From: Saprospiraceae bacterium
GTDB taxonomy: Bacteria > Bacteroidota > Bacteroidia > Chitinophagales > Saprospiraceae
Reading direction: 5' to 3'
Assembly: GCA_028280415.1 (NCBI GenBank)
Contig: JANQLV010000077.1
Span: 1 to 64,000 of the forward strand
DNA length: 64,000 bases
Under the pieces are notes generated by a model that saw nothing but the letters and a program-made list of their open reading frames with translations, had not been told where the DNA came from and made no database searches. Shown piece after piece: positions 14,428 to 55,920 of this stretch. Each line of letters opens with the position of its first letter. Positions within the stretch are counted from its first letter, which is position 1. Position numbers and translations under genes: made by a program.

Positions 14428-14465
14428 TTTTAAAAAGCAAACAAAAACAGAGAAATTAGATAGCC

Positions 14466-16901: not shown

Positions 16902-17004
16902 TCCCATAACTTATTAAGTGTAACAATACTTTGTAATGAACTCACTTAGCATATATTCAAAGCACGATATGAAAAAACTAGCTAAACTTTCAAAAGGAAG
17001 AATA

Positions 17005-35800: not shown

Positions 35801-38800
35801 AGTCCGGCGATCATTACAGCAGCTCCTGCAGATGTTACAATAAGCTGTGAAGATGCGATACCTGCTGTTGTTGATCCGGATTTTCAGGATAATTGTGCAA
35901 ATCTTCTTGATATCAGTTATCGGGAAACGGTACAGGATAGTATTTGTGAAGGAACGTATACTATTGTTCGTGAATGGATTGCCATAGATAGTTGTGATAA
36001 TATGACTATTGAAAACCAAATGGTTTTTGTTATTGATAATATAGCACCGCTTATTGCTTCGGTAAATGACCTGACTATAAATTGTGATGATTTGGGAAGT
36101 AGTCAAATTACGGACTGGTTAAATAATGTCACGGCAACGGACAATTGTAGTTCGGTAGATATTACGAATGATTATGATCCAAATGGATTTAGCGGAGGAT
36201 GCAGTGCTACTACTGGTACCCAGACAGTGACTTTTACGGCTAGTGATGCCTGTGGAAATGATACACAAACGACCGCAGTAATTACCATAATAGATAATAC
36301 CGCTCCTGTCTTTGATCCGATTGCGAATATAACTTTAAGCTGTACGGCTTCTACAGATACCATTACAACATGGTTAAATAATATTTCGGCAACGGATAAT
36401 TGCGGGAATATTACCATTACGAATAATTACGATCCGGACGGATTTAGTGGAGGATGCAGTACGAGTACCGGGACTCAAACGGTTACCTTCACCGCTACAG
36501 ATGAATGTGGAAATGTGAGCCAGGAGAATGGGACAATTACCTTGCTGGATGATATCGCTCCCGTCCTTGATCCGGTAGATGATCTTATCCTGACCTGTGA
36601 TACTCCAATGGATACTATTACTTCCTGGTTAAATGGAGCTACCGCAACAGATGACTGTAGCAATATTACCATTACGAATAATTACGATCCGGACGGATTT
36701 AGTGGAGGATGCAGTACGAATACCGGGACTCAAACAGTGACCTTTACTGTGATGGATGAATGTGGTAACACATCGAATCTTGATGCAAATATTATCATAC
36801 TTGATGATGAACCACCGGTATTTAATAATCCACCTGCCGATATAACTGTTGAATGTGGAATGATTCCCGATCCTGGAACGATTACCGCCAGTGATGATTG
36901 TGGAGGCACAGTTACGGTCACACATACGGATCAATCCATATCTGGAGAAAATATAATTAATCATGAATCGGGTAGTCTGGATGATTTTATTAATACCACA
37001 CCTGAATACTTTAACTTAAATCTGTCAGGCTACGATGACCTGACAGCGAATGACATTCATGACTTTACCATAAACTTCCGTAGCCAAAGAGGAAAAGGAA
37101 GAATCGAGTTTGTACTAATTGCACCAAGTGGAGATGCGATTACTTTAGTCGGTGAACATTGCAATACGGGAGATTGTGTAGATGGAGATTTCGGATTCGA
37201 AACGTATGGGCCGACTTTCTATCATTGTGGTTCTGGCTTTGATCAATGGGATAATAGCAACAGTATTCCTACCGGAGATGGAAACTTTGAGCCTAATGCC
37301 ACTACAGTTACCGGGTACACTGGAATTACTCAGTTCGTTACTTGCTTCGATGAGTTGACCGGCCCTATGAATGGTACTTGGACTTTGGCTGCTTTAAAAG
37401 CAGGATCAGGGCAGGTATTATTGAACGATTTTAGTATGAATGTTAATAATTCTGCTTGTCTTGAAGAGCTAGGAATTACCCGTACATTTACTGCTACTGA
37501 TGAATGTGGAAATATTACAACGCATATTCAGACGATCACAATCGAAGATACAACGGGGCCTGTGTTTGATTCGAACCCGGTAGATTTAGCAGATATTAAT
37601 TGTCATGATTCGTTTCCTGTTCAGGAAATTTTAACTGCTTCCGATTGCGGAGGGGATGTCATCGTAACACCTTCAATTGATCCTTACACAGTTGATATTT
37701 GTAATGGTTATATAGTGACTTACCGATGGTCAGCAGTAGATGACTGTGGAAACACCTCAGAGGTGACAAGTAGTTTCAATGTCCTTCCGGATGATACACC
37801 TCCAACTTTTAATGAAACGCCTGATCCGCTTGCGGATATTAGTTGTGGTGAGACTTTACCGGAGCAACAGACTTTAACAGCTACGGATAATTGTAGTACT
37901 GCGGATGTTGTTGCATCGGTTGACTCTTATGTTGCAGATGATTGCAATGGCTATGAAATTACTTATCGTTGGACGACAACGGATGCTTGTGGAAATACGG
38001 ATGAAATCACACAAACCTTCAATGTTTTACCGGATCTAAGTCCTCCAAGTCTGGTTAATGTTCCTGGCGATACTATAGTGAATTGTGGTGAAATTCCGGA
38101 TACGATATCAATTATTGCAAATGATAATTGTTCTAATTTAGTCAATATTGTTTTCAATGAAGCAATCACAAATGGTACCTGTGATGAAGAATATATTATT
38201 ACGCGTACCTGGACGGGTACAGATGCCTGTGGAAATATTACTACGGAAAATCAGGTAATTACTGTACAGGATAATGATTTACCATCTTTAGTGGGTATTC
38301 CGAATGATACTATAGTGAATTGTGGTGCGATACCGGATACTTCTTTATGGTCAATTACTGCTTTTGACAACTGCGATTCGGATGTAGATATTACTTTTAG
38401 TGAAGTTCAAACTGATGGTGCTTGTACAGGTGAATATACATTAACCCGTACCTGGATTGCGACAGATAATTGCGGAAATCAAAGTCAGGGAGTTCAGATT
38501 ATTATGGTACAGGATACCATAGTTCCTGTTTTTGATAACCAGCCAATCGACATTACGGTTGATTGTAATGATATTCCTGTACCACCTATAGTTACTGCAA
38601 CCGATAATTGCGGCTCTACTGTAGGTATTGCTTATAATGAAGAAAGTTTTGCCGGCGAATGTGTTGATTTGTATAATATACACCGTACCTGGATTGCCAC
38701 CGATGTTTGTGGTAACACAGATACAGTGACTCAAATTGTTTCTGTGACAGGCTGTGGCCCAGGGATAGAAGTAAGTGCTTCCCCCGATTCTACACTATGT

Positions 38801-41800
38801 GATGGTGGAGATATTACGCTAACAGTTTCTATGACTACGGGTTATCAAACGCCCAATTTCCTTTGGCAATATAGCTCTGATGGAACTGCCTGGGCCGATA
38901 TCCCTAATTCAAATAATTCTACATATACCTTTACAGTTGATGCAAGTTCTCAAGGTTTTTATCATGTTATTGTCTCAAACTCTCCGGACAATTTTGATAA
39001 CCCTGCATGTAGTGTAACTTCGAACGATATTAATTTGACTGTACTCCCGGTATCTCCCGATACTGACTTGGTTGAAGAACTATGTCAGGGGGAATCATTT
39101 ACGGTTGGTAGTCAAATCTTTAATACTACTGGAAATTATACGGTTACGCTGCAAAATGAGTTTGGTTGTGATAGTATTGTAAACCTTGATTTGACAGTAC
39201 ATCAGGTATATACGATTGACTTGTCTGAATCAATCTGCGAAGGAGAAACTTATACAGTCGGCACAAGTACTTATACGACGAGTGGTACCTATACAGATGT
39301 GTTGCCAACGGTAGCCGGTTGTGATAGTACGATCAATTTAACTTTAACAGTAAATCCAGTATATGATCAGGATATAGTGGAAGTGATCTGTGAGGGAGAT
39401 AGTATAGTAGTTGGAACAAGTGTCTATACTACGACGGGTATCTATACGGATGTGTTGACAACAATAAACGGCTGTGATAGTATTGTGAATTTGGATTTAA
39501 CAGTCAATCCGGTTTATAGTGAAGATCGGGAAGTGGAGATATGCCAGGGCGAGAGCTATACGGTCGGAACGAGTACTTATAATACAACAGGTATATATAC
39601 GGATGTATTACCGACGGAGCATGGTTGTGATAGTGTGATCAATTTGATTTTGACGGTAAACCCTACCTACACGGTACCGATAAATGCGACTATCTGTGAA
39701 GGGGAAAGTTATACGGTTGGTACAAGCACTTATACGACGAGTGGTATGTATACAGATGTGTTGCCGACAGTAGCCGGTTGTGATAGTACGATCAATTTAA
39801 CTTTAACGGTAAATCCAGTGTATGATCAGGACATTGAGGAAGTGATCTGTGAAGGAGATAGTATAGTGGTTGGAACGAGTACTTATACTACGACGGGCAT
39901 GTATACAGATGTGTTGACAACGATAAATGGTTGTGATAGTATTGTGAATTTGGATTTAACAGTCAATCCGGTTTATAGTGAAGATCGGGAAGTAGCGATT
40001 TGTCAGGGAGAAAGCTATACGGTTGGTACGAGCACCTATACGACAAGTGGTATGTATACAGATGTATTGTCGACGGAGCATGATTGTGATAGTGTGATCA
40101 ATTTGACTTTGACGGTAAACCCTACCTACACGGTACCGATAAATGCGACTATCTGTGAAGGGGAAAGTTATACGGTTGGTACAAGTACTTATACGACGAG
40201 TGGTACCTATACAGATGTGTTGTCGACGGTAGCCGGTTGTGATAGTACCATCAATTTGACCTTAACGGTAAATCCGGTATATGATCAGGATATAGTGGAA
40301 GTGATTTGTGAAGGAGAAAGTATAGTGGTTGGAACAAGTGTCTATACGACGACGGGAAGCTATACAGATGTGTTGACAACGATAGCTGGTTGTGATAGTA
40401 TCGTGAATTTGGATTTAACGGTAAATCCGGTGTACAGTGAAAACCGTGAAGTGGAGATATGTCAGGGTGAGAGCTATACGGTGGGTACGAGTACCTATAG
40501 CACAGCAGGCATTTATACAGATGTATTGTCGACGGAGCATGGCTGTGATAGTGTAATCAATTTGACCTTAACCGTAAACCCGACTTACACTTTACCGCTA
40601 AGTGCGACGATTTGTGAGGGCGAGACTTATACGGTTGGTACAAGCACTTATACGACGAGTGGTACCTATACAGATGTGTTGCCGACGGTAGCCGGTTGTG
40701 ATAGTACGATCAATTTAACTTTAACGGTAAATCCAGTATATGATCAGGACATTGTGGAAGTGATTTGTGAGGGAGATAGTATAGTGGTTGGGACAAGTGT
40801 CTATACAACGACGGGGAGCTATACGGATGTATTAACAACGATAAATGGTTGTGATAGTATCGTGAATTTGGATTTGACAGTAAATCCGGTATACAGTGAA
40901 GATCGGGAAATAGCGATATGTCAGGGTGAGAGTTATACGGTCGGAACGAGTACCTATACCACAGCAGGCATTTATACAGATGTATTGCCGACGGAGCATG
41001 GTTGTGATAGTGTGATCAATTTGACTTTGACCGTAAATCCGACCTACACGTTCCCACTAAGTGCGACGATTTGCGAAGGGGAGACTTATACGGTTGGTAC
41101 AAGCACCTATACGACAAGTGGTATCTATACAGATGTCTTGCCGACAGTAGCCGGTTGTGATAGTACGATTAATTTGACCTTGACGGTAAATCCAGTGTAT
41201 GATCAGGACATTGTGGAAGTGATTTGTGAGGGAGATAGTATAATGGTTGGAACAAGTGTCTATACTATGACGGGTAGCTATACGGATGTGTTGACAACGA
41301 TAAACGGCTGTGATAGTATTGTGAATTTGGATTTAACAGTAAATCCGGTGTACAGTGAAGATCGGGAAGTAGCGATTTGTCAGGGAGAAAGCTATACGGT
41401 TGGTACGAGCACCTATACGACAAGTGGTATGTATACAGATGTATTGTCTACGGAGCATGGCTGTGATAGTGTGATCAATTTGACCTTAACGGTAAATCCG
41501 ACTTACACGTTACCGCTAAGTGCAACGATTTGTGAAGGGGAGACTTATACAGTCGGCACAAGCACTTATACGACGAGTGGTATCTATACGGATGTGTTGC
41601 CGACGGTAGCCGGTTGTGATAGTACGATCAATTTAACTTTAACAGTAAATCCAGTGTATGATCAGGACATTGTGGAAGTGATCTGTGAAGGAGATAGTAT
41701 AGTGGTTGGAACGAGTACTTATACTACGACGGGCATGTATACAGATGTGTTGACAACAGTAAACGGTTGTGATAGCATTGTGAATTTGGATTTAACAGTA

Positions 41801-44800
41801 AATCCGGTGTACAGTGAAAATCGGGAAGTGGCGATATGTCAGGGCGAGAGCTATACGGTCGGAACGAGTACCTATAGCACAGCAGGCATTTATACAGATG
41901 TATTGTCTACGGAGCATGGCTGTGATAGTGTAATCAATTTGACTTTAATCGTAAACCCGACTTATACGGTACCGCTAAGTGCGACGATTTGCGAAGGAGA
42001 AACTTATACGGTTGGTACAAGCACCTATACGACGAGTGGTACCTATACAGATGTGTTGCCGACGGCAGCCGGTTGTGATAGTACCATCAATTTAACTTTA
42101 ACAGTAAATCCAGTATATGATCAGGATATAGTGGAAGTGATTTGTGAAGGAGATAGTATAGTAGTTGGAACAAGTACTTATGCTACGACGGGCATGTATA
42201 CAGATGTGTTGACAACTGTAAATGGCTGTGATAGTATTGTGAATTTGGATTTGACAGTTATTGAGCCAATTAATATAACATTGGATGTTGATCTTTGCGA
42301 AGGAGAGGATCATAATGGAATAACTTATACGGCTAGTACCAGTTTCAACGATACTTATACCTCCATTGCTGGTTGTGACAGTATAGTTACTACAAACATT
42401 ATTGTTCATTCACATTATGATGAAACAGTGATGGTGGACCTTTGTGAAGGTGGCGTATACCAGGGTATAATTTATACTGCCGATACAGTATTGGTAGAAA
42501 ACCTGAATAGCGAATTCGGTTGTGATAGCATCGTTACAACTATTATCGCGGTAACTGCAGAAGTTAATGAAATACTCAATGTCAATGTTTGTAATGGAGA
42601 TATTTATGATGGTGTCGTCTACACCTCCAATACTGTACTTACAGATACATATACTGCGACAGGAGGTTGTGATAGCATCGTCACTACAAATATTTTCGTA
42701 ATAGATCCTGTTGTTCAAAATATCACAGAAGTAATTTGCGAAGGAGATAGCATTATAGTAGGCACCAGTGTATATAGAACGACGGGTACTTATACAGATG
42801 TCTTAACTACTACCTTAGGTTGTGATAGTACAGTGAATTTGAATTTGACCGTAAACCCAGTATACAGTGAAGATCGGGAAGTAGCAATCTGTCAGGGCGA
42901 GAGCTATACGGTCGGAACGAGTACTTATAACACAGCAGGCGTTTATACAGATGTGTTGTCGACGGAGCATGGCTGTGATAGTGTAATCAATTTAACTTTA
43001 ACCGTAAACCCGACCTACACATTACCATTAAGTGCGACGATTTGCGAAGGGGAGACTTATACGGTCGGTACAAGTACCTATACGACAAGTGGTATATATA
43101 CAGATGTGTTGACAACAGTAGCCGGTTGTGATAGTACGATCAATTTAACCTTGACGGTAAACCCGGTATACGATCAGGATATCGAGGAAGTGATTTGTGA
43201 GGGAGATAGTGTAGTGGTGGGAACAAGTGTCTATACTACAACGGGCACCTATACGGATGTCTTGTCGACAGTAAATGGTTGTGATAGTATCTTGAATTTG
43301 GATTTAACGGTAAATCCGGTTTATAGTGAAGATCGGGAAGTAGCGATTTGCCAGGGCGAGAGTTATACGGTGGGTACGAGTACCTATAACACAGCAGGCG
43401 TTTATACAGATGTGTTGTCGACGGAGCATGGCTGTGATAGTGTAATCAATTTAACTTTAGCGGTAAATCCGACCTACACATTACCACTAAGTGCGACGAT
43501 TTGCGAAGGAGAAACTTATACGGTTGGCACAAGCACTTATACGACGAGTGGTATGTATACAGATGTCTTGCCGACGGTAGCCGGTTGTGATAGTACCATC
43601 AATTTAACTTTAACGGTAAATCCAGTATATGATCAGGATATTGTAGAAGTGATTTGTGAGGGAGATAGTATAGTGGTCGGAACAAGTGCCTATACTACGA
43701 CGGGTAGCTATACGGATGTGTTAACAACAATAAATGGTTGTGACAGTATTGTGAATTTGGATTTGACAGTTTTACAACCAATAACCAATGACTTGAATAT
43801 AGATTTATGCGAAGGAGATACTTATAATGGAATTGTCTATAGTGTCGACACCAGTTTTACCAATACTTATATAGCTGCTAATAGTTGTGATAGCATTGTG
43901 ACAACAAATGTCAATGTTCATTTGCATTATAATGAATTGGTAGAAATCAATTTATGTGAAGGGGCAATGTATAATGGTGAGGTTTATATTACTGATACTA
44001 CTTTAGTTGAAAACCTGACAACTGCTTACGGTTGTGATAGCATTATTACTACTGAAATCTTGGTGACCTCTGGCATCAATGAAGTACTTAATGTGAACTT
44101 ATGTTATGGAGAAGCATATGAAGGGACCAATTATACGGCTGATGCTACTTTCGTAAATACTTATACAGCAACTGGTGGTTGTGATAGTACGGTAACGACC
44201 AATATTTTTGTTCAGGAAGAAATAGTGGAAGATATTGCCCATACAATTTGTGAAGGAGAAAGCATTACGGTTGGTACAAATACGTATACGACTGCTGGTA
44301 CTTATACTGATATTTTGACAAGCTCAACGGGTTGCGATAGTACCGTAAACCTTACACTGCTTGTTAATCAAACCTATACAATTGATTTAACAGAATCAAT
44401 CTGTCAGGGTGAGAATTATACGGTTGGTACAAGTACGTATACTATTTCAGGCAATTATACGGATACTCTGGCAACAATCAATGGTTGCGATAGTATTGTT
44501 AATTTAGTCCTGACTGTAAACCCATCTTATACGATTCCATTTGAAGCTACAATCTGTGAAGGAGAAACCTTTACGGTGGGTAGCAGCAGTTATAGTACCG
44601 CAGGTACTTACACGGATGTGCTGACGACCGTAGATGGTTGCGATAGCACCATTATTTTAACCTTGACCGTTAATCCAGTATACGATCAGAATCTTGCGGA
44701 AGTGATTTGCGAAGGAGAAAGTTATACAGTCGGTGCAAATGTTTATAATGCCACGGGATTATATACAGAGGTGTTGACAACGGTAGAAGGCTGTGATAGT

Positions 44801-47800
44801 ACCATCAATCTTGATCTGACGGTATTAGCACCTCTTACTAATATTTTGGATGTAAACCTTTGCGAAGGGGAACTATATAACGGAATACCTTATACTACGG
44901 ATGCAACCGTACAAGATACTTATACTGCTGCCAATGGCTGTGATAGTATTGTGACGGCTAACATTACAGTTCATAATCCTTATGATGAACTTGTTGAAGT
45001 CAATCTATGTGAAGGTGCAATGTATAATGGTGTTGTTTATACTGCTGATGCAACACTTGTCGATAATCTTACAAGTGAGTTCGGTTGCGATAGCACGATT
45101 ACTACGCAGATTATGGTAACCTCGGCAATTACTGAAAATATTGATGTAGCATTATGTTATGGTGAAAGTTATGATGGAACACCTTATACAACAAGTACAG
45201 TTCTGGTAAATACCTATACTTCATCTGGAGGTTGTGATAGTACAGTGACTACTAATATTACCGTATTCGATGAAATGCTCTTAAATATCGATTCAACGAT
45301 TTGTACCGGAGGAAGTGTTACAATTGGTACAAATGTTTATACCACGCCAGGTAATTACACGAATGTATTAGTAGCTGCGAACGGTTGTGATAGTACAATT
45401 ACCCTGAACCTGCTTGTCAACGATACGTACGAAATTGATCTGGTGGAAACTATCTGTCAGGGGGAAAGCATTACAATTGGTTCGGATGTTTATAATACAA
45501 CAGGTACTTACAGCAGTACACTTACCGCAAGTAATGGTTGTGATAGTATTGTAAATCTTGACCTGACCGTAAACCAGGCCTTTACCATTAATTTCAATGA
45601 ATCCATTTGCCAGGGAGAAGAACTGGTTGTTGGTGCGGAGACCTATAATACCGCCGGTACGTATACACAAACATTGAGTACATCAATCGGCTGTGATAGT
45701 ATTATCATTGTTAACCTTACGGTAAATGATGTGCATACTACTGATCTGTTAGAAGAAATCTGCCAGGGAGAAAGCATTACAATTGGTACAAATGTTTATA
45801 CAACGAGTGGTTCTTATACCGATGTATTGACCAGCTACGAAGGCTGCGACAGTACCGTTAATTTGCAGCTTACTGTTAATCAACCAACTTCGAGTATAAC
45901 GAATGTTGATCTTTGTTCTGGAGAAGAATACGATGGAATTGCTTATACTGCTGATGCTACACTGACTGAAGTACTAACGGGTATTAATAATTGCGATAGT
46001 ATTGCAATGACGAATATAATTGTTCATCCGCACCATGCTGAAACCGTTGCAGTGAACCTCTGTGAAGGAGGCATTTATAATGGCGTGATTTATAATACGG
46101 ATGCAACACTTGTTGATAATTTTACTTCTGTTTACGGTTGCGATAGTATTATTACTACTGAAATTACAGTGACGCCACTTATCACGGATACCATTGATAT
46201 CGAACTATGTTATGGGGCATCCTATAATGGAACGATCTATACTGCGGATGCCGTTTGGACAAACTCTTATACTGCTGTATCGGGTTGTGATAGTATCGTA
46301 ACCACACAAGTTTTTGTTGAAGATGAACTTATTACAGATATCGTAGAGATTATCTGTGAAGGTGAAAGTGTAGTGGTAGGTACCAGTACCTATACAACAA
46401 GTGGAAACTATACAGATATCCTGACAACAGCTTCTGGTTGTGATAGTACCGTTAATTTGGCTTTGACCGTAAATCCGGTTTATACAGAAGATATCGTGGC
46501 GGAGATTTGTGAAGGAGAGACGTATACAGTTGGAAGTAGTATTTATAATTCAAGTGGCATTTATACGGATGTCCTAACCACGGTCAATGGTTGTGATAGT
46601 ACGATTAATTTGACTTTGACCGTTAATCCGGTTTATACAGAAGATATCGTGGCAGAGATTTGTGAAGGAGAGACGTATACAGTTGGAAGTAGCATTTATA
46701 ATTCAAGTGGCATTTATACGGATGTCCTAACCACGGTCAATGGTTGTGATAGTACGATTAATTTGACTTTGACTGTAAATCCGGTTTATGATATAGACTT
46801 TACGGCCGTCATTTGCCAGGGTGAAAGTGTTGCTATCGGATCGAATGTTTACACGACTACCGGAAACTATACAGATGTGCTGGTAAGTAGTACCGGCTGT
46901 GATAGTATCATCAATTTAGCTCTTCAGGTAAATCAACCAACCAGTAGCGAAACAACGGTTGAACTCTGTACTGGTGAAATGTATGAAGGAACCGTTTATA
47001 CCGGTGACGAAACTTTGGTGGAAACACTAACGGGTATTAATGGCTGTGACAGCATTGCAACGACATTTGTTATTGTGCATCCGGATTTTGCAGAGACTAT
47101 ACCGGTAAATATTTGCGAAGGAGAGGAATACGATGGTATCTCTTATTTTGATGACGCAGTTCTGGTAGACAGTTTTACAACTGTTCAGGGTTGTGACAGT
47201 ATTATCACGACTAACATCAATGTAATTCCAACCTTGCGCGATACTCAAATGATTGAGCTTTGTTTTGGAGGCGTTTACGACATGACGCCGTACTTCTCGG
47301 ATACTATTCTTATCGATACTTTTCCGGCGATTAGCGGCTGTGATAGTATCGTAGTTAGAAATATCAATGTAGAGCAGGATTTGATCACCAATCTGAATGA
47401 AACTATATGCGAAGGAGAGAGTGTGATTGTGGGTACAAATGTATACACAACCAGCGGGAATTATACAGATATATTACCGAGCAACAGTGGTTGTGATAGT
47501 ACGGTTAACCTTATTCTGATTGTTAATCAACCAACCAGTAGTGAAAATGATATTACACTTTGTGCAGGTGATTTCCATAACGGGACGGCTTATTTTTCTG
47601 ATACTGTATTGGTAGAAACCTTGACGGGTATTAATGATTGTGATAGTGTAGCAACCACCAATATATTTGTCAATCCGGAATATAGTGAATTGATTGAAGC
47701 AAGTATTTGCGAAGGAGACTTATATGATGGTGTTCTCTACCTGGCAGATACTATTTTAGTGGATAACTATCTTACAGTCAATGGTTGTGATAGTATCATT

Positions 47801-50098
47801 ACTACCACTCTTGATATCTTGCCGATTCAATACGATACTTCATTTATTAATTTGTGTTACGGTGACTTTTATAATGGCACCATTTATTTGATGGATGATA
47901 TATATACGGATACCTATACGGCAGCTACCGGCTGTGATAGTCTTCATACTACAGTAATTGCAGTAAGTAATGGAGTAATGACTAACCTGAATGAAATTAT
48001 CTGTCAAGGTGAAAGTATCCATGTTGGAACAAATGTTTATACTACGAATGGAGTGTTTGCAGATACTTTGATCGGTAGCAATGGTTGTGACAGTATAGTG
48101 AACCTTATATTAACGGTTAATGATACATTCAATATTGATATTGCCGGAGTAATCTGTGAAGGAGAGCAATTTGATGTAGGTGGATTTAGCTTTAGTGATG
48201 GAGGTGAGCATACCGTTGTATTGTCGACTGTTAATGGCTGTGATAGTACAGTAAATCTTTCTCTGACTGTTAATCCGGTTTATCTGGATACTATTTTTCA
48301 GGAAATATGTGATGGAGAAAGCTTTGCGGTTGGAACCAATACATATACGGAAACGGGAGTTTATACAGAAGCATTATCTACTGCTGCAGGTTGTGATAGT
48401 ACGATAGTTCTCGATCTTACTGTTCACCCTGTTTATGACCTGTTTACGGAAGCACAGATTTGTATCGGAGATGAATATCAGCAAGGAAACAGCATTTACA
48501 CAGAGTCCGGAGTCTATACAGATACCCTGACGACAGGCAATGGTTGCGATAGTATTTTGACTGTTGATTTAACTGTTATTCCAATTTACTACAGTACAGT
48601 TCATGCGAATATCTGTGAAGGAAACAGCTATTATGCCGGTGGAGCCGATCAAACGGCCGAAGGTACTTACTACGATACAATTGTCAATAATGTTGGTTGT
48701 AATAATGTATTGATTACACATCTGTTCATTCTTGAAAATTATGAAGAAACTTATGATGTCAGCATTTGCGAAGGAGAAACTTATTACGCAGGCGGACAGC
48801 TTCAACTTGCTTCCGGCACGTATTACGATACGCTAATTGCAAGTACCGGTTGTGACAGTATGGTTGTCACCAATCTGACCGTTAATCCAATCTATCAGGA
48901 TACGCTACAGATAGGTATTTGTGAAGGTGAAAGCTATTATGCCGCCGGAGCAGAGCAAACAACTCCGGGAACCTACATTAGTAATTATCAGACAATTAAT
49001 GGCTGTGATAGTACCGTCGTTGTTGAACTGGAAGTCAATGTGAATAAAAATATTAGCTTCCCGGTTACCATGTGCGAAGGGGAATCGATTACGGTAAATG
49101 GAGTCGAACAAACAGAGACAGGAGTATATGTGGATTCTTTGTCGACAAGTGTTGGCTGTGACAGTTTTGTTACCTATCTGGTCACTGTAATTGATCGCTA
49201 TGAAACCTTCTTTGATGAAGTGATTTGCGAAGGGGATAGTATATTGATCGCGGGTGAATACCGATCTGAAGCCGGAGAGTTTGTAGAAGAATTGACTTCT
49301 CAAAATGGTTGTGATAGTATTATCGTTACAGAGCTGATAGTAGAACCTGTTGCACAATTACTTGTCAATGATATGGAAATGTGTTTTGGCGAAGAAGTAC
49401 AATTGTCTGTAGAGGGAAGCGATCAGCTGAGCTGGTCTCCAGCCGATGGCTTAAGCTGTACCGATTGCCCGAACCCAATCGCTGATCCGCGGGTGACAAC
49501 GACTTATACCGTTAGTACTGAAAGCTGTATGGGGACGATGGTTGAAGCGAGTGTAACGGTTACGGTTCATAATCCACCTTCTCTGACGGTAAGCACGGAT
49601 AATAATGTGATACTTAATGACGGTATTGTTTTGACTGCTATTTCAACCGATCCCGATGCTCTGATCACCTGGTATCAAAACGGTGAGATAGTCTGTGAAG
49701 ATTGTACAGAGTATACTGCTGAACCATCTGTTAACATGAGCTTCCTGGTAGTGGTAGAAGATGAATACGGTTGTACCAATTCAGATAATGTTGATGTCAA
49801 TGTCAACGATGCATGTAGTTTTAGCAATTTCGAAATACCCAACATTATCTCTCCGAATGGTGATGGATACAATGATGAGTTTGAGATCAAATATGAAGGC
49901 GTGGAAGAAGTTTCTTTACTTAGAATCTATAACCGCTGGGGAGAAATGGTTTTTGAAACCTATGACATTGATCAACGCTGGGACGGAACGTTCAAAGGTA
50001 AAAGAACAAACCCTGGTGTTTACATTTACTATATGGAAGGCCGTTGCCTGGATAATGAACCATTTACCAAAACCGGCAACATAACAGTATTGAAATAA
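26837..50098 (+). CDS. giant 7753-aa modular T9SS type B surface protein
   Basis: One uninterrupted 23.3-kb gene. The frame opens with GTG at 26813; the ATG at 26837 is preferred and starts a signal peptide (ending ITAQ). Order: P-domain (about 28-171); two Ca-type motifs (DDDFDGLIDAFDDDC, IDDDQDGLPDDIDPDC); FG-GAP-like propeller (about 529-1031); CARDB-like part; discoidin domain (about 1585-1730); IgGFc-binding-like part (about 1822-2245); about 17 HYR-like repeats ending ATD.CGN (to about 3972), with further inserted domains; an Ig-like segment; a 68-unit Cys-repeat array (4075-7506); a type B gliding-motility-associated C-terminus (about 7667-7753: SPNGDGYND, YNRWGE, RWDGTFKGK). Adhesion to proteins or glycans is the likely role. 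The PorP/SprF gene at 50298 may serve its export. Confidence 0.93.
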   Translation: MQNGRLKQVIYILACFCLFGANSITAQNIYTSTDTPITIPNDQVVTITSTITVTDDLCIEDVNVLNLSVTHSWVSDLQVFLTSPNGTTVSLINQVCGSQNDIDLNFDDSGAAYSSIPCPPTNGLTYHPEGDLASFVGENTNGTWTLTVVDNFAWDGGALESWQLEIFAGLCNEPSGACDSDTPFHPADLSAAPDATYISPADQRDGNCCDNPNTSPPSRCIEFEVLLHPDAVGLEFGIESGAVPSGSMYYQVDCGDEIPVGESICLTGTGPFTITFCKPGNNTNEYYINSIPSGVEAFPASAYEGCPETLSVIGFEEATIVWNDITSGTGAYDSNLSCTTACANPVFTITDPNVSTIQYEVCGEISQTVCDDDAIIVCDTVTVDITQAFDIIVNPYPVSFCQGSSDTPEVLASTTTSGNFSFTWYDGPNGTGNVVSNTSSFEPSTGGDYSIVIYETSHGACSERMLNVNVQILNCQEDCDNEIDDDFDGLIDAFDDDCPCDDDGVLAGCQPDCEYIPPTLPNFTVEEEWTSAVNVNTLVPTVAGELDGDLSATEIIALGDQFGSTLYEGAVNNILIIDGGTGELKYRPNTLPVSQNTKGMAIADADRDGNGEFYYIVSNDTAAYARHIVCYEYDPTGINPEGSGTGTFTRRWISDQAVDCNLGSTYEFYTQDFSVALADFNFDGTPEVYVGNEIYNALTGEKITDGGSNSIGSSISDYSDHFHFHAYPVAVDVLPDYLCDDCAGLELVAGNQVYAVDIANGTMTVERQVENNLPDGMTSIVDYDLDGDLDAAITMTTTTGSYLYIWDLQSNLQIGATHTITEVVNPWYRSVSNAVIADFDGDNLPEIGVCGNYVFQVIDDHTQDISGTGGVLWSITTTDNSGMTGAAAFDFNGDGITEVVYRDENDLRIISGPTGINLATYSCGSVTGTEYPVVIDIDYDGETEVICNCGDATYSSIGTMRAFKSDTYPWVPTRSVWNQYGYFVTNINDNLSIPIEQQPHHKVGNPTIGVSGRLNTFLKQVGPTNDLGEPLFPASNLQTTILSNAELDDCGNLDSLEITLRFANYGDVAFPGGTSFAIYNGNPEVAATLVGVYSVEVNVPVNDSIIQTVYVDISSLSFPVNLYIVGNDDGSLTIPFDLENDFPTTPVGECDFENNMDFISLDYCDLINDTEGPIITLNEANDSGDTTLVSNYPDDQRYFVFENGNWAQADIASDVTNSWTTVTFNEPFNAIPTLLTQIITDNDSDALVARVRNLDETGFQVRLRNQESNGGTISAESVAWIAMDQGGSSANVTMEALSTGNSVDENWYEVTFLETYSGTPIFIGSCTSRTGGDPISIRYRNLTATNVELLAQEEQSDDNEIGHSNEEVSYVVFDSPGLIQDTFNSNFAEVGRIQIDHDNNEDDWTKVNLLKTYENPVVVAGPVGFDDSTPTTLRVRNVDTTSFEIQIDNWDYLGRAHGTETIHYMVMELKPQAIVEASVDASDTEDDVTDCDEQPTAPIASVTDNCDDDVEIVFNETVNISGCDKSVTWTWTATDDCGNVTVETQVLDFSDANPPVITNVPADVTVNCNGEIPDDLEFDCTTILENVALNKTVSQSSTSHNGLATRAVDGNTSGNWGNGSVTHTSSEANAWWEVDLHEVTDIDSIEIWGRTDCCSDRLSDYYVFVSDDPFTSTDLNTTLNQSGVTAFYFNTTAGTPTGISLDQTGRYVRVQLNETNPLSLAEVVVYSEIATGVCATDDCDDDLSLDFTETSTQTSDGSCTDQNYIITRTWTATDDCGNIVTGQQTITVLCECCGNGIDDDQDGLPDDIDPDCNCAEVDLTSCDSLLYYYIPPVWQLNGSTYNNDPNLIITTAFSEANVNIYTADGTTFNQSFNLGTGNPATISLSTDELQTPNHNSVENDRGFIVESDREIDILYRMNAYNNQFLASIKGKEALGYSFRAGSQTKTCGSPNTSRRENHFISVMATEDNTLLTFDFATTMAGGIASPHAITLNRGETYLIRDNNTNVTVSGISVVADKPVSVMSGSQHTNICNSILGDSGLDHLVPVCNVGTDYAVVRGDGNSNQNYALVVATEDNTNVYINGGATSIATLNAGDYYEYDLGGSLGDATYIQTSSPAYLYQFSGLSTVNPEVGMTLLPPLTSCNGERQLEFIRFDGADLQLLQLIVDDNALPSLTINGAPYTDYTSAVAISGLSGYSLVSIEDGLIDLYNSIEAADGYFHANLVTGITNTSGTFSAISGFSDNLDVYDPVEDLPTSYYFADSICVGTVYAHCLKVESCTDNNSIVSFDHDTDLGTIDLTSDLCFDYTPEPTAIGTDVITFLVQNEFGKQTTVCVEIFICNGVQQLTVVSIPDTITIDCSDPIDVPVTPIIAEGCVEIDFTETLTAGSAGCADNSYVLERKWVARGFCGTDSLSLTQVVNVIDNTPPVIFNVPDDIDLQCMDCLQSFLNGDFEEPGFSGAWQSIHEDNVPGWSTTASDNRIEIQRSGQINGVVSYSGNYHAELNGNLNGDFYQEFCTVPTTTLQVSFAHHKRVSGNNTTDDIMAVYAGPDINNLSFIESFTATNTSGWTVHTLSYFVPAGQSNTVIAFRAIQGAPSNITFGNLIDDVNVITLLDNVLIPDATDNCDDDVELILSETQIDGNCENHFQLIRTWTAVDNCGNASVATQTLSVGDFEPPVFANVPADITVDCDNIPVASNAITASDNCTLEADVIFDVNDVSGAGCNYQIVRTWTATDVCGNSADTFQLITVIDDTAPEVNNVPADITIFCGDTVPDVIYPAVTDACFTSVDTIYLEDIQDAGCDGGSEIERTWTFRDACGNETTVSQNITVRDTTAPVFTTFPDDVTFDCSETVSITEPTASDACSSSVTITYSDTNGIPPCEESYTIIRTWIATDDCGNIATREQTIAVQDNTPPVFSDLPADITVECDDFPITDAPSVTDDCSDFEVTLDELKQSIICEDSYEVRRTWTAIDACGNRNQYIQIVTVIDTISPAIITAAPADVTISCEDAIPAVVDPDFQDNCANLLDISYRETVQDSICEGTYTIVREWIAIDSCDNMTIENQMVFVIDNIAPLIASVNDLTINCDDLGSSQITDWLNNVTATDNCSSVDITNDYDPNGFSGGCSATTGTQTVTFTASDACGNDTQTTAVITIIDNTAPVFDPIANITLSCTASTDTITTWLNNISATDNCGNITITNNYDPDGFSGGCSTSTGTQTVTFTATDECGNVSQENGTITLLDDIAPVLDPVDDLILTCDTPMDTITSWLNGATATDDCSNITITNNYDPDGFSGGCSTNTGTQTVTFTVMDECGNTSNLDANIIILDDEPPVFNNPPADITVECGMIPDPGTITASDDCGGTVTVTHTDQSISGENIINHESGSLDDFINTTPEYFNLNLSGYDDLTANDIHDFTINFRSQRGKGRIEFVLIAPSGDAITLVGEHCNTGDCVDGDFGFETYGPTFYHCGSGFDQWDNSNSIPTGDGNFEPNATTVTGYTGITQFVTCFDELTGPMNGTWTLAALKAGSGQVLLNDFSMNVNNSACLEELGITRTFTATDECGNITTHIQTITIEDTTGPVFDSNPVDLADINCHDSFPVQEILTASDCGGDVIVTPSIDPYTVDICNGYIVTYRWSAVDDCGNTSEVTSSFNVLPDDTPPTFNETPDPLADISCGETLPEQQTLTATDNCSTADVVASVDSYVADDCNGYEITYRWTTTDACGNTDEITQTFNVLPDLSPPSLVNVPGDTIVNCGEIPDTISIIANDNCSNLVNIVFNEAITNGTCDEEYIITRTWTGTDACGNITTENQVITVQDNDLPSLVGIPNDTIVNCGAIPDTSLWSITAFDNCDSDVDITFSEVQTDGACTGEYTLTRTWIATDNCGNQSQGVQIIMVQDTIVPVFDNQPIDITVDCNDIPVPPIVTATDNCGSTVGIAYNEESFAGECVDLYNIHRTWIATDVCGNTDTVTQIVSVTGCGPGIEVSASPDSTLCDGGDITLTVSMTTGYQTPNFLWQYSSDGTAWADIPNSNNSTYTFTVDASSQGFYHVIVSNSPDNFDNPACSVTSNDINLTVLPVSPDTDLVEELCQGESFTVGSQIFNTTGNYTVTLQNEFGCDSIVNLDLTVHQVYTIDLSESICEGETYTVGTSTYTTSGTYTDVLPTVAGCDSTINLTLTVNPVYDQDIVEVICEGDSIVVGTSVYTTTGIYTDVLTTINGCDSIVNLDLTVNPVYSEDREVEICQGESYTVGTSTYNTTGIYTDVLPTEHGCDSVINLILTVNPTYTVPINATICEGESYTVGTSTYTTSGMYTDVLPTVAGCDSTINLTLTVNPVYDQDIEEVICEGDSIVVGTSTYTTTGMYTDVLTTINGCDSIVNLDLTVNPVYSEDREVAICQGESYTVGTSTYTTSGMYTDVLSTEHDCDSVINLTLTVNPTYTVPINATICEGESYTVGTSTYTTSGTYTDVLSTVAGCDSTINLTLTVNPVYDQDIVEVICEGESIVVGTSVYTTTGSYTDVLTTIAGCDSIVNLDLTVNPVYSENREVEICQGESYTVGTSTYSTAGIYTDVLSTEHGCDSVINLTLTVNPTYTLPLSATICEGETYTVGTSTYTTSGTYTDVLPTVAGCDSTINLTLTVNPVYDQDIVEVICEGDSIVVGTSVYTTTGSYTDVLTTINGCDSIVNLDLTVNPVYSEDREIAICQGESYTVGTSTYTTAGIYTDVLPTEHGCDSVINLTLTVNPTYTFPLSATICEGETYTVGTSTYTTSGIYTDVLPTVAGCDSTINLTLTVNPVYDQDIVEVICEGDSIMVGTSVYTMTGSYTDVLTTINGCDSIVNLDLTVNPVYSEDREVAICQGESYTVGTSTYTTSGMYTDVLSTEHGCDSVINLTLTVNPTYTLPLSATICEGETYTVGTSTYTTSGIYTDVLPTVAGCDSTINLTLTVNPVYDQDIVEVICEGDSIVVGTSTYTTTGMYTDVLTTVNGCDSIVNLDLTVNPVYSENREVAICQGESYTVGTSTYSTAGIYTDVLSTEHGCDSVINLTLIVNPTYTVPLSATICEGETYTVGTSTYTTSGTYTDVLPTAAGCDSTINLTLTVNPVYDQDIVEVICEGDSIVVGTSTYATTGMYTDVLTTVNGCDSIVNLDLTVIEPINITLDVDLCEGEDHNGITYTASTSFNDTYTSIAGCDSIVTTNIIVHSHYDETVMVDLCEGGVYQGIIYTADTVLVENLNSEFGCDSIVTTIIAVTAEVNEILNVNVCNGDIYDGVVYTSNTVLTDTYTATGGCDSIVTTNIFVIDPVVQNITEVICEGDSIIVGTSVYRTTGTYTDVLTTTLGCDSTVNLNLTVNPVYSEDREVAICQGESYTVGTSTYNTAGVYTDVLSTEHGCDSVINLTLTVNPTYTLPLSATICEGETYTVGTSTYTTSGIYTDVLTTVAGCDSTINLTLTVNPVYDQDIEEVICEGDSVVVGTSVYTTTGTYTDVLSTVNGCDSILNLDLTVNPVYSEDREVAICQGESYTVGTSTYNTAGVYTDVLSTEHGCDSVINLTLAVNPTYTLPLSATICEGETYTVGTSTYTTSGMYTDVLPTVAGCDSTINLTLTVNPVYDQDIVEVICEGDSIVVGTSAYTTTGSYTDVLTTINGCDSIVNLDLTVLQPITNDLNIDLCEGDTYNGIVYSVDTSFTNTYIAANSCDSIVTTNVNVHLHYNELVEINLCEGAMYNGEVYITDTTLVENLTTAYGCDSIITTEILVTSGINEVLNVNLCYGEAYEGTNYTADATFVNTYTATGGCDSTVTTNIFVQEEIVEDIAHTICEGESITVGTNTYTTAGTYTDILTSSTGCDSTVNLTLLVNQTYTIDLTESICQGENYTVGTSTYTISGNYTDTLATINGCDSIVNLVLTVNPSYTIPFEATICEGETFTVGSSSYSTAGTYTDVLTTVDGCDSTIILTLTVNPVYDQNLAEVICEGESYTVGANVYNATGLYTEVLTTVEGCDSTINLDLTVLAPLTNILDVNLCEGELYNGIPYTTDATVQDTYTAANGCDSIVTANITVHNPYDELVEVNLCEGAMYNGVVYTADATLVDNLTSEFGCDSTITTQIMVTSAITENIDVALCYGESYDGTPYTTSTVLVNTYTSSGGCDSTVTTNITVFDEMLLNIDSTICTGGSVTIGTNVYTTPGNYTNVLVAANGCDSTITLNLLVNDTYEIDLVETICQGESITIGSDVYNTTGTYSSTLTASNGCDSIVNLDLTVNQAFTINFNESICQGEELVVGAETYNTAGTYTQTLSTSIGCDSIIIVNLTVNDVHTTDLLEEICQGESITIGTNVYTTSGSYTDVLTSYEGCDSTVNLQLTVNQPTSSITNVDLCSGEEYDGIAYTADATLTEVLTGINNCDSIAMTNIIVHPHHAETVAVNLCEGGIYNGVIYNTDATLVDNFTSVYGCDSIITTEITVTPLITDTIDIELCYGASYNGTIYTADAVWTNSYTAVSGCDSIVTTQVFVEDELITDIVEIICEGESVVVGTSTYTTSGNYTDILTTASGCDSTVNLALTVNPVYTEDIVAEICEGETYTVGSSIYNSSGIYTDVLTTVNGCDSTINLTLTVNPVYTEDIVAEICEGETYTVGSSIYNSSGIYTDVLTTVNGCDSTINLTLTVNPVYDIDFTAVICQGESVAIGSNVYTTTGNYTDVLVSSTGCDSIINLALQVNQPTSSETTVELCTGEMYEGTVYTGDETLVETLTGINGCDSIATTFVIVHPDFAETIPVNICEGEEYDGISYFDDAVLVDSFTTVQGCDSIITTNINVIPTLRDTQMIELCFGGVYDMTPYFSDTILIDTFPAISGCDSIVVRNINVEQDLITNLNETICEGESVIVGTNVYTTSGNYTDILPSNSGCDSTVNLILIVNQPTSSENDITLCAGDFHNGTAYFSDTVLVETLTGINDCDSVATTNIFVNPEYSELIEASICEGDLYDGVLYLADTILVDNYLTVNGCDSIITTTLDILPIQYDTSFINLCYGDFYNGTIYLMDDIYTDTYTAATGCDSLHTTVIAVSNGVMTNLNEIICQGESIHVGTNVYTTNGVFADTLIGSNGCDSIVNLILTVNDTFNIDIAGVICEGEQFDVGGFSFSDGGEHTVVLSTVNGCDSTVNLSLTVNPVYLDTIFQEICDGESFAVGTNTYTETGVYTEALSTAAGCDSTIVLDLTVHPVYDLFTEAQICIGDEYQQGNSIYTESGVYTDTLTTGNGCDSILTVDLTVIPIYYSTVHANICEGNSYYAGGADQTAEGTYYDTIVNNVGCNNVLITHLFILENYEETYDVSICEGETYYAGGQLQLASGTYYDTLIASTGCDSMVVTNLTVNPIYQDTLQIGICEGESYYAAGAEQTTPGTYISNYQTINGCDSTVVVELEVNVNKNISFPVTMCEGESITVNGVEQTETGVYVDSLSTSVGCDSFVTYLVTVIDRYETFFDEVICEGDSILIAGEYRSEAGEFVEELTSQNGCDSIIVTELIVEPVAQLLVNDMEMCFGEEVQLSVEGSDQLSWSPADGLSCTDCPNPIADPRVTTTYTVSTESCMGTMVEASVTVTVHNPPSLTVSTDNNVILNDGIVLTAISTDPDALITWYQNGEIVCEDCTEYTAEPSVNMSFLVVVEDEYGCTNSDNVDVNVNDACSFSNFEIPNIISPNGDGYNDEFEIKYEGVEEVSLLRIYNRWGEMVFETYDIDQRWDGTFKGKRTNPGVYIYYMEGRCLDNEPFTKTGNITVLK
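31570..32035 (+). other. discoidin (F5/8 type C) domain inserted in a HYR-like repeat
   Basis: Translation shows NVALNKTVSQSS, then AVDGNT, WWEVDLHEVTDIDSIEIWGR and GRYVRVQL, the typical course of a discoidin domain. It starts after VTVNCNGEIPDD, where a HYR-like repeat would continue, and the remainder of that repeat (ATDDCDDD...RTWTATDDCGN) follows it. A carbohydrate- or lipid-binding role is usual for the family. Confidence 0.75.
34160..34685 (+). other. lectin-like domain inserted in a HYR-like repeat
   Basis: After DIDLQCMDC the reading departs from the HYR-like pattern. It shows FLNGDFEEPGF, VPGWSTTASDNRIEIQ, YHAELNG, LQVSFAHHKR and a closing LIDDVNVI, a jelly-roll pattern found in secreted carbohydrate-binding proteins. 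The host repeat resumes with PDATDNCDDD. The insertion point matches that of the discoidin domain. Confidence 0.65.
36058..36775 (+). repeat. three near-identical HYR-like repeats (about 85 aa)
   Basis: Three tandem copies encode a WLNN or WLNG motif, then ATD-N/D-C, NYDP, a GGCS motif, a TGTQTVTF motif and finally CGN. The stretch beginning AATATTACC at 36407 recurs at 36662, 255 bp later, with essentially no change over about 58 bp. This marks a recent duplication in an otherwise diverged HYR-like region. Confidence 0.85.
36945..37465 (+). other. second P-domain inserted in a HYR-like repeat
   Basis: The segment has the P-domain course: DFTINFRSQRGKGRIEFVLIAPSGD, LVGEHC, MNGTWTLAALKAG and LNDFSMNV. 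It interrupts a HYR-like repeat between DQSISG and CLEELGITRTFTATDECGN. P-domains occur with subtilisin-type proteases; here no protease domain is present. Confidence 0.7.
39059..49354 (+). repeat. 68-unit Cys-repeat array with higher-order periods
   Basis: Sixty-eight tandem units by direct reading. Fifty are 51 aa (153 bp; core [18 protein letters not shown] ... GCDST.NL.LTVNP.Y). Eighteen are 49 aa (147 bp; core LCEG..YNG..YTAD ... GCDSI.TTNI.V). 50 x 153 + 18 x 147 equals the measured 10,296 bp exactly. Units 2-21 (39212-42271) cycle in threes (459 bp). The 49-aa units occur only as six triads, starting at 42272, 43784, 44837, 45890, 46943 and 47537; four of these starts are exactly 1053 bp apart. 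Nearly every unit has two cysteines, one in C-E/Q-G and one in G-C-D-S. Units 60-68 are the most diverged. Confidence 0.95.
46481..46786 (+). repeat. near-perfect tandem duplication of one 153-bp unit
   Basis: 46481-46633 and 46634-46786 (units 50 and 51) encode identical 51-aa units and differ at only a few bases, for example GGCGGAG versus GGCAGAG and AGTAGTATT versus AGTAGCATT. This is the most recent-looking unit duplication in the array. Confidence 0.9.
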
Positions 50099-50297: not shown

Positions 50298-51332
50298 ATG
50301 AGAATAATTCTACTTAAGCTATTTCTATTGATAGCCTATTCTTCCAGCTTACTTGCACAGGATATTCATTTTTCACAAATTCATGCCTCTCCGACTATTC
50401 TTAATCCGGCTATGACTGGTTTGACCAATTCGGATGTAAGATTCACCCTTAATACCAAGAGTCAGTGGAATACTGTAACGAAAGCCTATAAGACCGTTGC
50501 AGGAACTGCGGATATGAAATTAGGCTTTTTACCTAACGGTGATGTGATTGGAGGAGGACTAATGGTATTATCGGATAAAGCCGGTGATCTGGATTTTAAA
50601 ACTACTGTTGCAAGCGTTGGAATTTCCTACATGAAATCACTGGATAAAGGAGAGAATTATGTTTCTTTTGGACTTAGCAATGCCCTGGTTACCAATAGCG
50701 TAGATTATTCAAAGATCGTTGCCTTTGATTTGGAGCCTTCCATTCAGGCCGGAGCAAATGACAGGATTACCTATTGGGATGTTTCTGCAGGAATAGGCTG
50801 GTTTCATTCTTTTAATAAAGATTATGCTTTCCACCTGGGAGTATCCGTTTTTCACCTCAATCGTCCTTATGTTTCTTTTTTCGATGATCAATCCAATACG
50901 GAAGGTTTATTTCTTTTTAGGAAATGGACGGTACACGGGACTGGTGATTTAAAAATAAGCAAAAAGTCAGTTCTAAAACCCAGTTTTATCTTTAAAGATC
51001 AGGGGCCGCATAAAGAAATTACAATTGGTACTTTCTGGAAATATAAAACGGCAAAAGATCAAAGGCAGGATAATCCTACTTCTATCTATTTTGGAGGCTG
51101 GTTTCGATGGTTTGCTGAAAAGAATTATTTCGGAAGAGATGCTATTGTAGCGGCGATTAGATTTGATTACAAAAAGACCTATATGACTTTTACTTTTGAT
51201 ATCAATATTTCTTCACTTTCAAGAGTCTCATTCGGAGCTGGAGGACCTGAGTTTTCTGTCATTCAATTAGTCGACTTTAGAGATGAAAATGATCGACCTA
51301 AAAAAGTAGAATGTCCGGCTTTTATATACTAA
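50298..51332 (+). CDS. second PorP/SprF-family T9SS outer-membrane protein
   Basis: A 344-aa paralogue of the protein at 13336. It has a signal peptide ending SLLAQ, the family opening DIHFSQIHASPTILNPAMTG, many alternating beta-strands, and the closing FGAGGPEFSVI. It lies just downstream of the 7753-aa type B protein but behind a strong terminator, so it probably has its own promoter. Known SprF proteins work with one type B cargo each, which suggests this copy serves the giant protein. Sequence outside the conserved ends is clearly different from the 13336 copy, so the two are not a recent duplication. Confidence 0.92.
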   Translation: MRIILLKLFLLIAYSSSLLAQDIHFSQIHASPTILNPAMTGLTNSDVRFTLNTKSQWNTVTKAYKTVAGTADMKLGFLPNGDVIGGGLMVLSDKAGDLDFKTTVASVGISYMKSLDKGENYVSFGLSNALVTNSVDYSKIVAFDLEPSIQAGANDRITYWDVSAGIGWFHSFNKDYAFHLGVSVFHLNRPYVSFFDDQSNTEGLFLFRKWTVHGTGDLKISKKSVLKPSFIFKDQGPHKEITIGTFWKYKTAKDQRQDNPTSIYFGGWFRWFAEKNYFGRDAIVAAIRFDYKKTYMTFTFDINISSLSRVSFGAGGPEFSVIQLVDFRDENDRPKKVECPAFIY

Positions 51333-54700: not shown

Positions 54701-55920
54701 AAACCTTTACTGTTGGTCAAAATTCCTTTACCGAAGCCGGGACCTATAATTTCACCCTGGAAAGTAGTGCGGGATGTAATAGTGAAGTGACTTTGAATCT
54801 GAACGTAAATGAATCATTTGCCATTGAGCAAAATATTCAGATCTGCGAAGGAGAGTCCTATAGCGTAGGGAATGAAACCTTTACAGAAAGTGGAAATTAT
54901 GATGTAGTGTTGCAGGCAGTCAATGGTTGCGACAGCACGATTATGCTCGGTCTTACAGTAAATGCCACTTCCGAAGAATTGACAGAAACGATTTGTGAAG
55001 GAGAATCCTATACGGTTGGTACGACGACTTTTACGACAAGTGGTGATCATATAGTTGTACTAACTTCTACCAGTGGTTGTGGTGATAGTACGGTTTACCT
55101 TAATTTGACGGTTCAACCCACACAGCTAAATCCAATGGCCGAAATTTGCGATGGAGAGACCTTTACCTATGGAGGAGTGGGATATACGGAGACGGGGGTT
55201 TATGATGGCTCATTTATGACCAATGAAGGTTGTGAAGTATCCTATACGCTGGACCTGACGGTACATAATGTTGCCGTAATTAACCAGGTAGAATCAATCT
55301 GTGCAGGCTCTTCGATCACTATCGGGACAAGTACTTATTCGGAGAGCGGAATTTATACAGATGTGCTTACTTCGGCAACGGGCTGTGATAGTACCATTAA
55401 CCTGACGCTAACCGTCCTTGAGCCGGTAGCCGCAACCGAAATAATTACCGATGATAATGGAAGTAGTAACGGGGCGATTGATTTAACCGTTTCCGGAGGG
55501 ATGGCTCCATATTCCTTTGACTGGAGTAATGGCATGATTACAGAAGATATCAGTAATTTGATAACAGGAACATATTCCGTTGTAATTACAGATGCCATCG
55601 GATGTACGGCAGAATATACCTTTACGGTTGATCAGATTAATTCTACTTTCGAATTGGATGGTGAACTTGAAGTAAAAGTATACCCGAATCCCGCCCCGGC
55701 TGGAGGCTTAACCAATCTTTCATTTAATGTTAATCAACAGCAGAAGCTGACGATTCAGTTATTTGATAATGTTGGAAAACTGATAAGTACGGAAAATGTT
55801 AACTTCCTGAGTGGGAACACCATTCGCACCTTAAGAGTGCCTAATGTACAGGGATTATATCAGCTGCGTATCGAAACCGAGCAGGGCAAATCTGGTATTA
55901 TTCCTTTATCCGTGAAATAG
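51769..55920 (+). CDS. 1383-aa surface protein: 14-blade propeller, Cys-repeats, T9SS type A
   Basis: A secreted protein with a signal peptide ending SFAQ. Residues about 41-761 hold 14 YVTN/lactonase-like blades, each with a form of VSPDGN.VYV followed by DDAV.VF.RN, enough for two seven-bladed propellers. Residues about 763-1221 hold nine Cys-repeat units of the same family as the 68-unit array in the giant protein (ICEGDS...GCDST...). One SprB-like domain follows ([14 protein letters not shown]...TDAIGC), then a T9SS type A sorting domain ([25 protein letters not shown]). No catalytic residues are evident, so binding or adhesion is more likely than lactone hydrolysis. It appears to be monocistronic. 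Confidence 0.9.
51885..54050 (+). repeat. fourteen propeller-blade repeats
   Basis: Fourteen copies of a blade of about 150 bp encode an SPDG-x-x-V/L-Y-V strand, a D-x-A-x-x-x-F-x-R-N strand, a G-x-L-T-F/Y strand and a G-V-x-G-x-x-G linker. Spacing is regular except near blades 7-8, where the linker changes to GLGVSGLDG, a natural border between two seven-bladed propellers. Confidence 0.8.
54055..55430 (+). repeat. nine Cys-repeat units related to the giant protein's array
   Basis: Nine consecutive units of about 48-52 aa. Most have a C-E/D/Q-G near the start, a V-G or similar turn, and GC(D/N)S near the end. They are all well diverged from one another and none is a DNA copy of a unit in the giant gene. 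The first unit lacks the usual GCDS and has GTCKS instead. Confidence 0.85.

Follow-up and report, generated by a model that had tools for sequence, protein, structure and literature searches.

A nested 68-unit repeat array in a giant putative T9SS type B surface protein of a Saprospiraceae bacterium

The window analysed in this study (64,000 bp of contig JANQLV010000077.1 from a Saprospiraceae bacterium with a genome of 7.1 Mb) revealed a gene for a giant protein of 7,753 aa, which harbors 68 repeat units following each other without gaps and in a nested order. We consider it fairly likely that this gene product is a lectin-tipped fibrillar adhesin of the Periscope kind, whose stalk varies by the exchange of triads or cassettes of units. 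For the giant protein we infer adhesion, anchoring at the surface, and a rod shape.

Results

Giant gene and domain organization

An uninterrupted open reading frame with a GTG start was identified at positions 26813–50098 of the forward strand, encoding 7,761 aa. The ATG at position 26837 begins a typical signal peptide and gives 7,753 aa, confirming the single protein of this length that a preliminary description of the sequence had proposed as carrier of the array. Domain searches led to the following features outside the array:

26837..50098 (+): giant surface protein with a T9SS type B signal, 7,753 aa when read from the ATG (ORF translation)
26837..26917 (+): probable Sec signal peptide MQNGRLKQVIYILACFCLFGANSITAQ, judged from the translation
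27029..27331 (+): P_proprotein (P/Homo B) domain (Pfam PF01483, 1.2e-14)
28856..29674 (+): FG-GAP repeats (Pfam PF13517/PF01839)
30494..30685 (+): H-type lectin domain (Pfam PF09458, 31.7 bits against a cut-off of 24)
31589..32032 (+): F5/8 type C domain (Pfam PF22633/PF00754)
32813..33424 (+): IgGFc_binding-family region, with its true start upstream of the scanned cut (Pfam PF17517, 5.6e-26)
32813..39058 (+): stretch containing twelve HYR_4C (HYR-like, four-cysteine) matches (Pfam PF23237, 2.7e-64, 12 stretches)
49577..50041 (+): T9SS type B sorting domain of the CHU_C / Bac_Flav_CTERM kind (PF13585, 2.9e-19; TIGR04131, 5.3e-13, above cut-off), preceded by a weak Ig_7 match
50298..51332 (+): PorP/SprF-family outer-membrane protein (PF11751, 2.2e-31; TIGR03519, above cut-off)
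51769..55920 (+): beta-propeller protein with more copies of the ~51-aa unit, a SprB repeat, and a T9SS type A tail

The nearest relatives of the F5/8 type C domain were fucose-binding F-type lectins (PDB 3cqo, FBP32, 5.6e-25). Of the three elements used to define a fibrillar adhesin, the adhesive domain (lectin-type domains) and the surface anchor (type B signal) are predicted by domain search, and the tandem stalk corresponds to the 68-unit array. A sister genome (G001:C104, locus L120) contains a very long reading frame of 8,194 aa, whose HYR-like domains resemble those of the giant protein.

Probable carrier gene and the question of gliding

Two contigs of the same genus, publicly labeled as Saprospiraceae, were used for comparison, namely G001:C119 (JAHDHW010000023.1) and G003:C19 (JANQQI010000088.1). 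T9SS type B proteins bind to, and are anchored by, PorP-like carriers (PMC9143113). Both hallmarks of such a cargo, the C-terminal CHU_C/TIGR04131 domain and an adjoining gene for a PorP/SprF-like carrier, were found for the giant protein, with the same gene order in the two sister genomes, where the carrier is likewise followed by the propeller gene. The product of 50298–51332 is the probable carrier and anchor of the giant protein. Its C-terminal tail ends in KKVECPAFIY with a single Cys; the tails of the G001 and G003 carriers also contain one Cys each. Overall, the genome encodes SprA and 19 carriers of the PorP/SprF family, several of which also terminate in a single CP motif. A second T9SS locus at 13336–23421 comprises genes for a PorP-like protein (C-terminal tail CPTC) and a PorE/OmpA-like protein. 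It also encodes a repeat protein of 2,161 aa, the C-terminus of which looks like a type B signal.

A giant repetitive protein next to such a carrier could also be a gliding adhesin of the SprB type, which the gliding machinery transports along the cell. The type B signal and the adjoining sprF-like gene without an adjoining porE resemble the arrangement of sprB and sprF (PMC9143113), and the genome encodes, besides SprA, a GldJ-like protein, which scored 383 bits and thus stayed under the cut-off of 458 bits. However, SprB repeats (PF13573) were reported in none of the scanned pieces of the giant protein, and its carrier possesses one Cys in the C-terminal tail instead of the Cys-X-Cys that SprF requires for attachment to the track (PMC12635249). 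Since this carrier and several others of the genome share the single Cys, movement along a gliding track is uncertain. The lectin-type domains would, moreover, also be compatible with static binding. Altogether, we regard a SprB-type function as rather unlikely.

Layout of the repeat array

Using the second Cys as the anchor for the boundaries of every unit resulted in 68 gap-free units at positions 39059–49354, consisting of 50 units of 51 aa and 18 units of 49 aa (3,432 aa in total). This layout is near certain; it reaches exactly position 49354 and agrees with the unit numbers given before. The array is organized as follows:

39059..42271 (+): block 1, 21 long units, with ABCABC...AB across units 2–21
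42272..42712 (+): short triad abc, units 22–24
42713..43783 (+): seven long units B-CAB-CAB, units 25–31
43784..44836 (+): cassette of abc short triad and four long units, units 32–38
44837..45889 (+): cassette of abc short triad and four long units, units 39–45
45890..46942 (+): cassette of abc short triad and four long units, units 46–52
46943..47536 (+): cassette of abc short triad and one long unit, units 53–56
47537..47977 (+): final short triad abc, units 57–59
47978..49354 (+): nine diverged long units, units 60–68

The triads of 459 bp described for units 2–21 are real: mean DNA identity was 0.87–0.89 at lags of 3, 6, 9, 12, 15, and 18 units and 0.63–0.67 at all other lags. An independent run of TRF reported periods of 153 and 459, and an exact repeat of 78 bp was located at 39649 and 40108, that is, at an offset of exactly 459 bp. 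When the unit order was shuffled 300 times, the best-lag identity of the array was never reached.

Units of 49 aa occur solely as abc triads, six in number, starting at 42272, 43784, 44837, 45890, 46943, and 47537. The four previously reported triads (43784, 44837, 45890, and 46943) do lie exactly 1053 bp apart, and two more had been overlooked, one 1512 bp before the four (42272) and one 594 bp after them (47537). All spacings (1512, 1053, 1053, 1053, and 594 bp) correspond to 594 + 459k with k = 2, 1, 1, 1, and 0, so that successive short triads are separated by 1+3k long units. Hence the cassette of three short and four long units shows the proposed spacing but is merely the k = 1 form of this series and not a basic unit; as S3-L1 arrays (three short, one long) also exist in other genomes, we dropped 1053 bp as the basic cassette. 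Sorting the long units into classes A, B, and C gave the layout (ABC)n followed by abc-B-(CAB)k, with weak assignments beyond unit 34, where the classes are eroded. The ABC phase is unbroken once units 22–25 (abc + B) are taken out, indicating that a 594-bp abcB module sits within the chain of triads.

Comparison with the array of a sister species

From unit 22 onward, the array follows the order S3 L7 S3 L4 S3 L4 S3 L4 S3 L1 S3 L9, while its ortholog in G001:C119 revealed S3 L7 S3 L4 S3 L4 S3 L4 S3 L4 S3 L1 S3 L9. The two species thus differ by exactly one extra cassette of 1053 bp (three short and four long units) in G001. Because the G001 array ends at the contig edge, this comparison applies to the layouts and not to total unit numbers; the N-terminal half of the ortholog is located on a separate contig that terminates where the array starts.

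Eight of the last nine units (60–65, 67, and 68) pair position by position with G001, with an identity of 0.51–0.63 compared to 0.29–0.42 to other units; unit 66 showed no such pairing (0.37 vs. 0.36). Units of the triad region had their closest matches within their own genome and not across species. For 88% of 42 units, the assignment to the short classes a, b, and c agreed between genomes, which was reached in 0 of 300 shuffles.

Within the G001 array, units 5–6 and 8–9, one triad apart, were 100% identical at the DNA level. Cassettes 11–17 and 18–24 form a mosaic, with identities from 96% down to 58% and dS from 0.13 to saturation, which suggests patchwise conversion in addition to duplication. 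Repeats of 100% identity could, however, conceal an assembly error in this array.

Age, selection, and exchange

Within the triad classes of the source array, dN was 0.04–0.07 and dS 0.5–0.6 (dN/dS of about 0.1). Between its short triads, dS was mostly above 1 or saturated, so that the 1053-bp cassettes must be old, and long units matched by cassette were scarcely more similar than unmatched ones. A clear recent duplicate was detected inside the cassette of units 46–52, where units 50 and 51 share 97% DNA identity (dS 0.12). The old cassettes of the source array are maintained by purifying selection on protein sequence and length, and recent exchange is visible mainly in the G001 sister array.

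The idea of unequal exchange by cassettes, put forward in the preliminary description, therefore holds in part: the one-cassette difference to G001, identical pairs at lag 3, and mosaic cassettes speak for it, but recent exchange of 1053-bp steps was not seen in the source array, where dS between short triads is mostly saturated. Strict selection on unit length, the other half of that proposal, was supported by the low dN/dS in the triad classes and by 49 loci from other genomes, in which 541 of 684 unit-to-unit steps were exactly 51 aa. As far as sequences tell, the stalk appears to lengthen and shorten by entire blocks of units, and we infer recombination as the cause of these changes.

The 51-aa unit in other genomes

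The 51-aa unit was detected in all 40 nearest genomes (E ≤ 0.001) and, in a phylum-wide sample of 297 genomes, in 14 (E ≤ 1e-6), and a pattern scan yielded many more loci of ~51-aa units. Arrays of the form CxG...GCDS with ~51 aa per unit were found at many loci in Saprospiraceae, Lewinella, Crocinitomicaceae, Bacteroidales, and Runella. In Pfam and NCBIfam, the unit had no convincing match and no single stretch passed a cut-off; a search with 32 single units one by one resulted in no consistent family match. Matches of the array to Transketolase_C, NuoB, and other Pfam/NCBIfam families were rejected as summed weak matches of a repetitive query with no stretch passing. PHROGs matches were weak. 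No convincing match was obtained in a sequence search against the PDB either (profile queries A1 and A4 included), where immunoglobulin light chains with E values of 0.05–1 were composition-like and discarded. A search for related loci with a 14-unit query gave none in the genome or viral contigs, while query A2 did yield loci. In the literature on giant repeat adhesins of Saprospiraceae, we did not find this unit described. With a unit common in Bacteroidota, absent from Pfam/NCBIfam, and without a solved relative in sequence, many giant surface proteins of this phylum go unannotated in these two databases.

Copies of the unit were also observed in an uncultured phage genome of 634,780 bp (LR745206.1:579321-580802; 31% identity), and protein A0A8D9FS04 of an uncultured marine phage in the viral library matched it.

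Nested periods of this kind could reflect a structural register, i.e., a superhelical rod in which every turn takes the same number of units and selection preserves the triad and 7-unit periods. The exact unit lengths, the low dN/dS, the abc short triad that is always threefold in the source array and the sister, and the recurrence of period 4 in arrays of several families are in line with this. In a test against shuffled unit order covering about fifty arrays, not all of them independent and with P values uncorrected for their number, significant best periods in other Bacteroidota were 4 (commonest), 2, 1, 5, and 3. Period 4 was seen in arrays L031, L032, L077, L078, L089, L096, L139, and L141. 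The alternation S3-L1 (the k = 0 form) was clear in the same-genus paralog L031 and partial in L138 and L139. These varied periods, next to 7, and the combination of 3-, 4-, 7-, and 10-unit spacings in the source array itself speak against a register, which we consider quite unlikely; the defined superhelical repeat suggested earlier was not supported. Comparison of the arrays argues that periods stem from the history of duplications and not from a constant turn, with the excess of period 4 left unaccounted for.

Predicted fold and similarity to GhpA

AlphaFold confidently predicted an all-beta fold for three long units (pLDDT 93.8) and also modeled ten units (pLDDT 80.5). In the models, the unit consists of three long strands, to which long units add a small hairpin that is mostly missing in the short units of the ten-unit model. 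The two invariant Cys of each unit probably form a disulfide. The array almost lacks Lys: its 3,432 aa include a single Lys and 13 Arg next to 462 Asp+Glu, giving a net charge of -448. Very low contents of Lys and Arg were also found in many related arrays.

Aureispira is a member of the Saprospiraceae. For both models, the best solved structure in Foldseek was the neck of GhpA, the grappling hook protein of this genus (probability 1.00), with E values of 4.5e-18 for ten units and 3.8e-6 for three units (22% identity) but low TM-scores (0.25 and 0.41), perhaps owing to poor superposition of long flexible arrays. Tandem Rib stalk domains were also returned. GhpA is secreted by the T9SS, comprises 5,898 residues, and is heptameric (PMC11205867, PMC13319060). 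The array might thus be the neck of an oligomeric prey-catching hook, as the structural match, the shared family, and the size and secretion route of GhpA would suggest. Against such a grappling hook, no GhpA fragment in the PDB was matched by sequence when the array, the C-terminal part, and the N-terminal half were searched, the TM-scores were low, and short arrays of the 51-aa unit are widespread in Bacteroidota, which makes this reading quite doubtful. Similarly improbable, in our view, is an extended form of it, in which the array would serve as neck in oligomeric appendages for capture, a new class in Saprospiraceae with a GhpA-related fold. Its reach would be set in quantised steps of triads or cassettes, and its interleaving would separate identical units and so prevent misfolding between neighbors.

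That the assembler produced the number or order of units is hardly credible for the layout, since the longest exact repeat within the array is 95 bp, all copies in units 2–21 are mutually distinct, and a separately assembled sister has the same plan, even though the sister assemblies break within the array or at its edge and such arrays are thus hard to assemble.

Discussion

Under the favored account of a fibrillar adhesin, the giant protein would be exported by the T9SS and held at its C-terminus by the PorP/SprF-like carrier. From its N-terminal half, with the probable lectin domains, the protein would continue into the HYR section and the 68-unit, disulfide-type beta stalk beside the C-terminal signal. 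In fibrillar and Periscope adhesins, the stalk projects the binding end (PMC8286594, PMC8201768); here, the array would project the lectin end, and its length would set the reach. This length would shift mainly through homologous exchange between units three or seven apart, which are most alike and so likeliest to recombine, with a triad (459 bp) or a cassette (1053 bp) as the step, while purifying selection would keep every unit strictly to 51 or 49 aa. Periscope Proteins vary in repeat number between strains; here, a one-cassette difference was observed between two species. Against this account, the DNA identity of neighboring units is far under what the Periscope model expects. The problem of misfolding has been discussed (PMC8201768), and prompted by it we hypothesize that the interleaved order, with neighbors in units 2–21 being about 64% identical, may limit it.

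For a coding gene, the nested order is unusual, as the step of length change, three or seven units, is legible in the sequence and can be checked in a sister species. It makes two ideas testable, namely that the length of an adhesin evolves in quantised steps and that interleaved unlike units shield a stalk from misfolding. The modeled link to the GhpA fold would make the giant protein a candidate for a predatory or capture appendage.

Comparison with known systems

The unnamed ~51-aa CxG...GCDS arrays of Bacteroidota share unit and spacing with the source array but mostly comprise 5–30 long units, unlike its 68 units; some arrays of Saprospiraceae show period 4, with one long unit between successive abc short triads. 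SprB of Flavobacterium johnsoniae with its carrier SprF is, like the protein described here, a giant repetitive surface protein with a type B signal and an adjoining PorP/SprF-family gene. It differs in the SprB repeats, which were not found in our protein; the latter harbors another unit of 51/49 aa and lectin-type domains, and its carrier has a single Cys in the C-terminal tail. GhpA of Aureispira sp. CCB-QB (neck, PDB 9flp and 9fls) is the best fold match, belongs to the same family, and is a T9SS-secreted giant as well, but has no detectable sequence similarity. Periscope Proteins and other fibrillar adhesins (SasG, Rib, Sgo_0707) differ from the giant protein in its Gram-negative T9SS anchoring, in the old age of its units, and in adjacent units of only about 64% protein identity, with similar ones interleaved at lags of 3 and 7. 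Nevertheless, they share with it N-terminal domains of the binding type, a tandem beta stalk, and a C-terminal anchoring signal, and the number of repeats, which changes by recombination in Periscope Proteins, may do so in the array as well.
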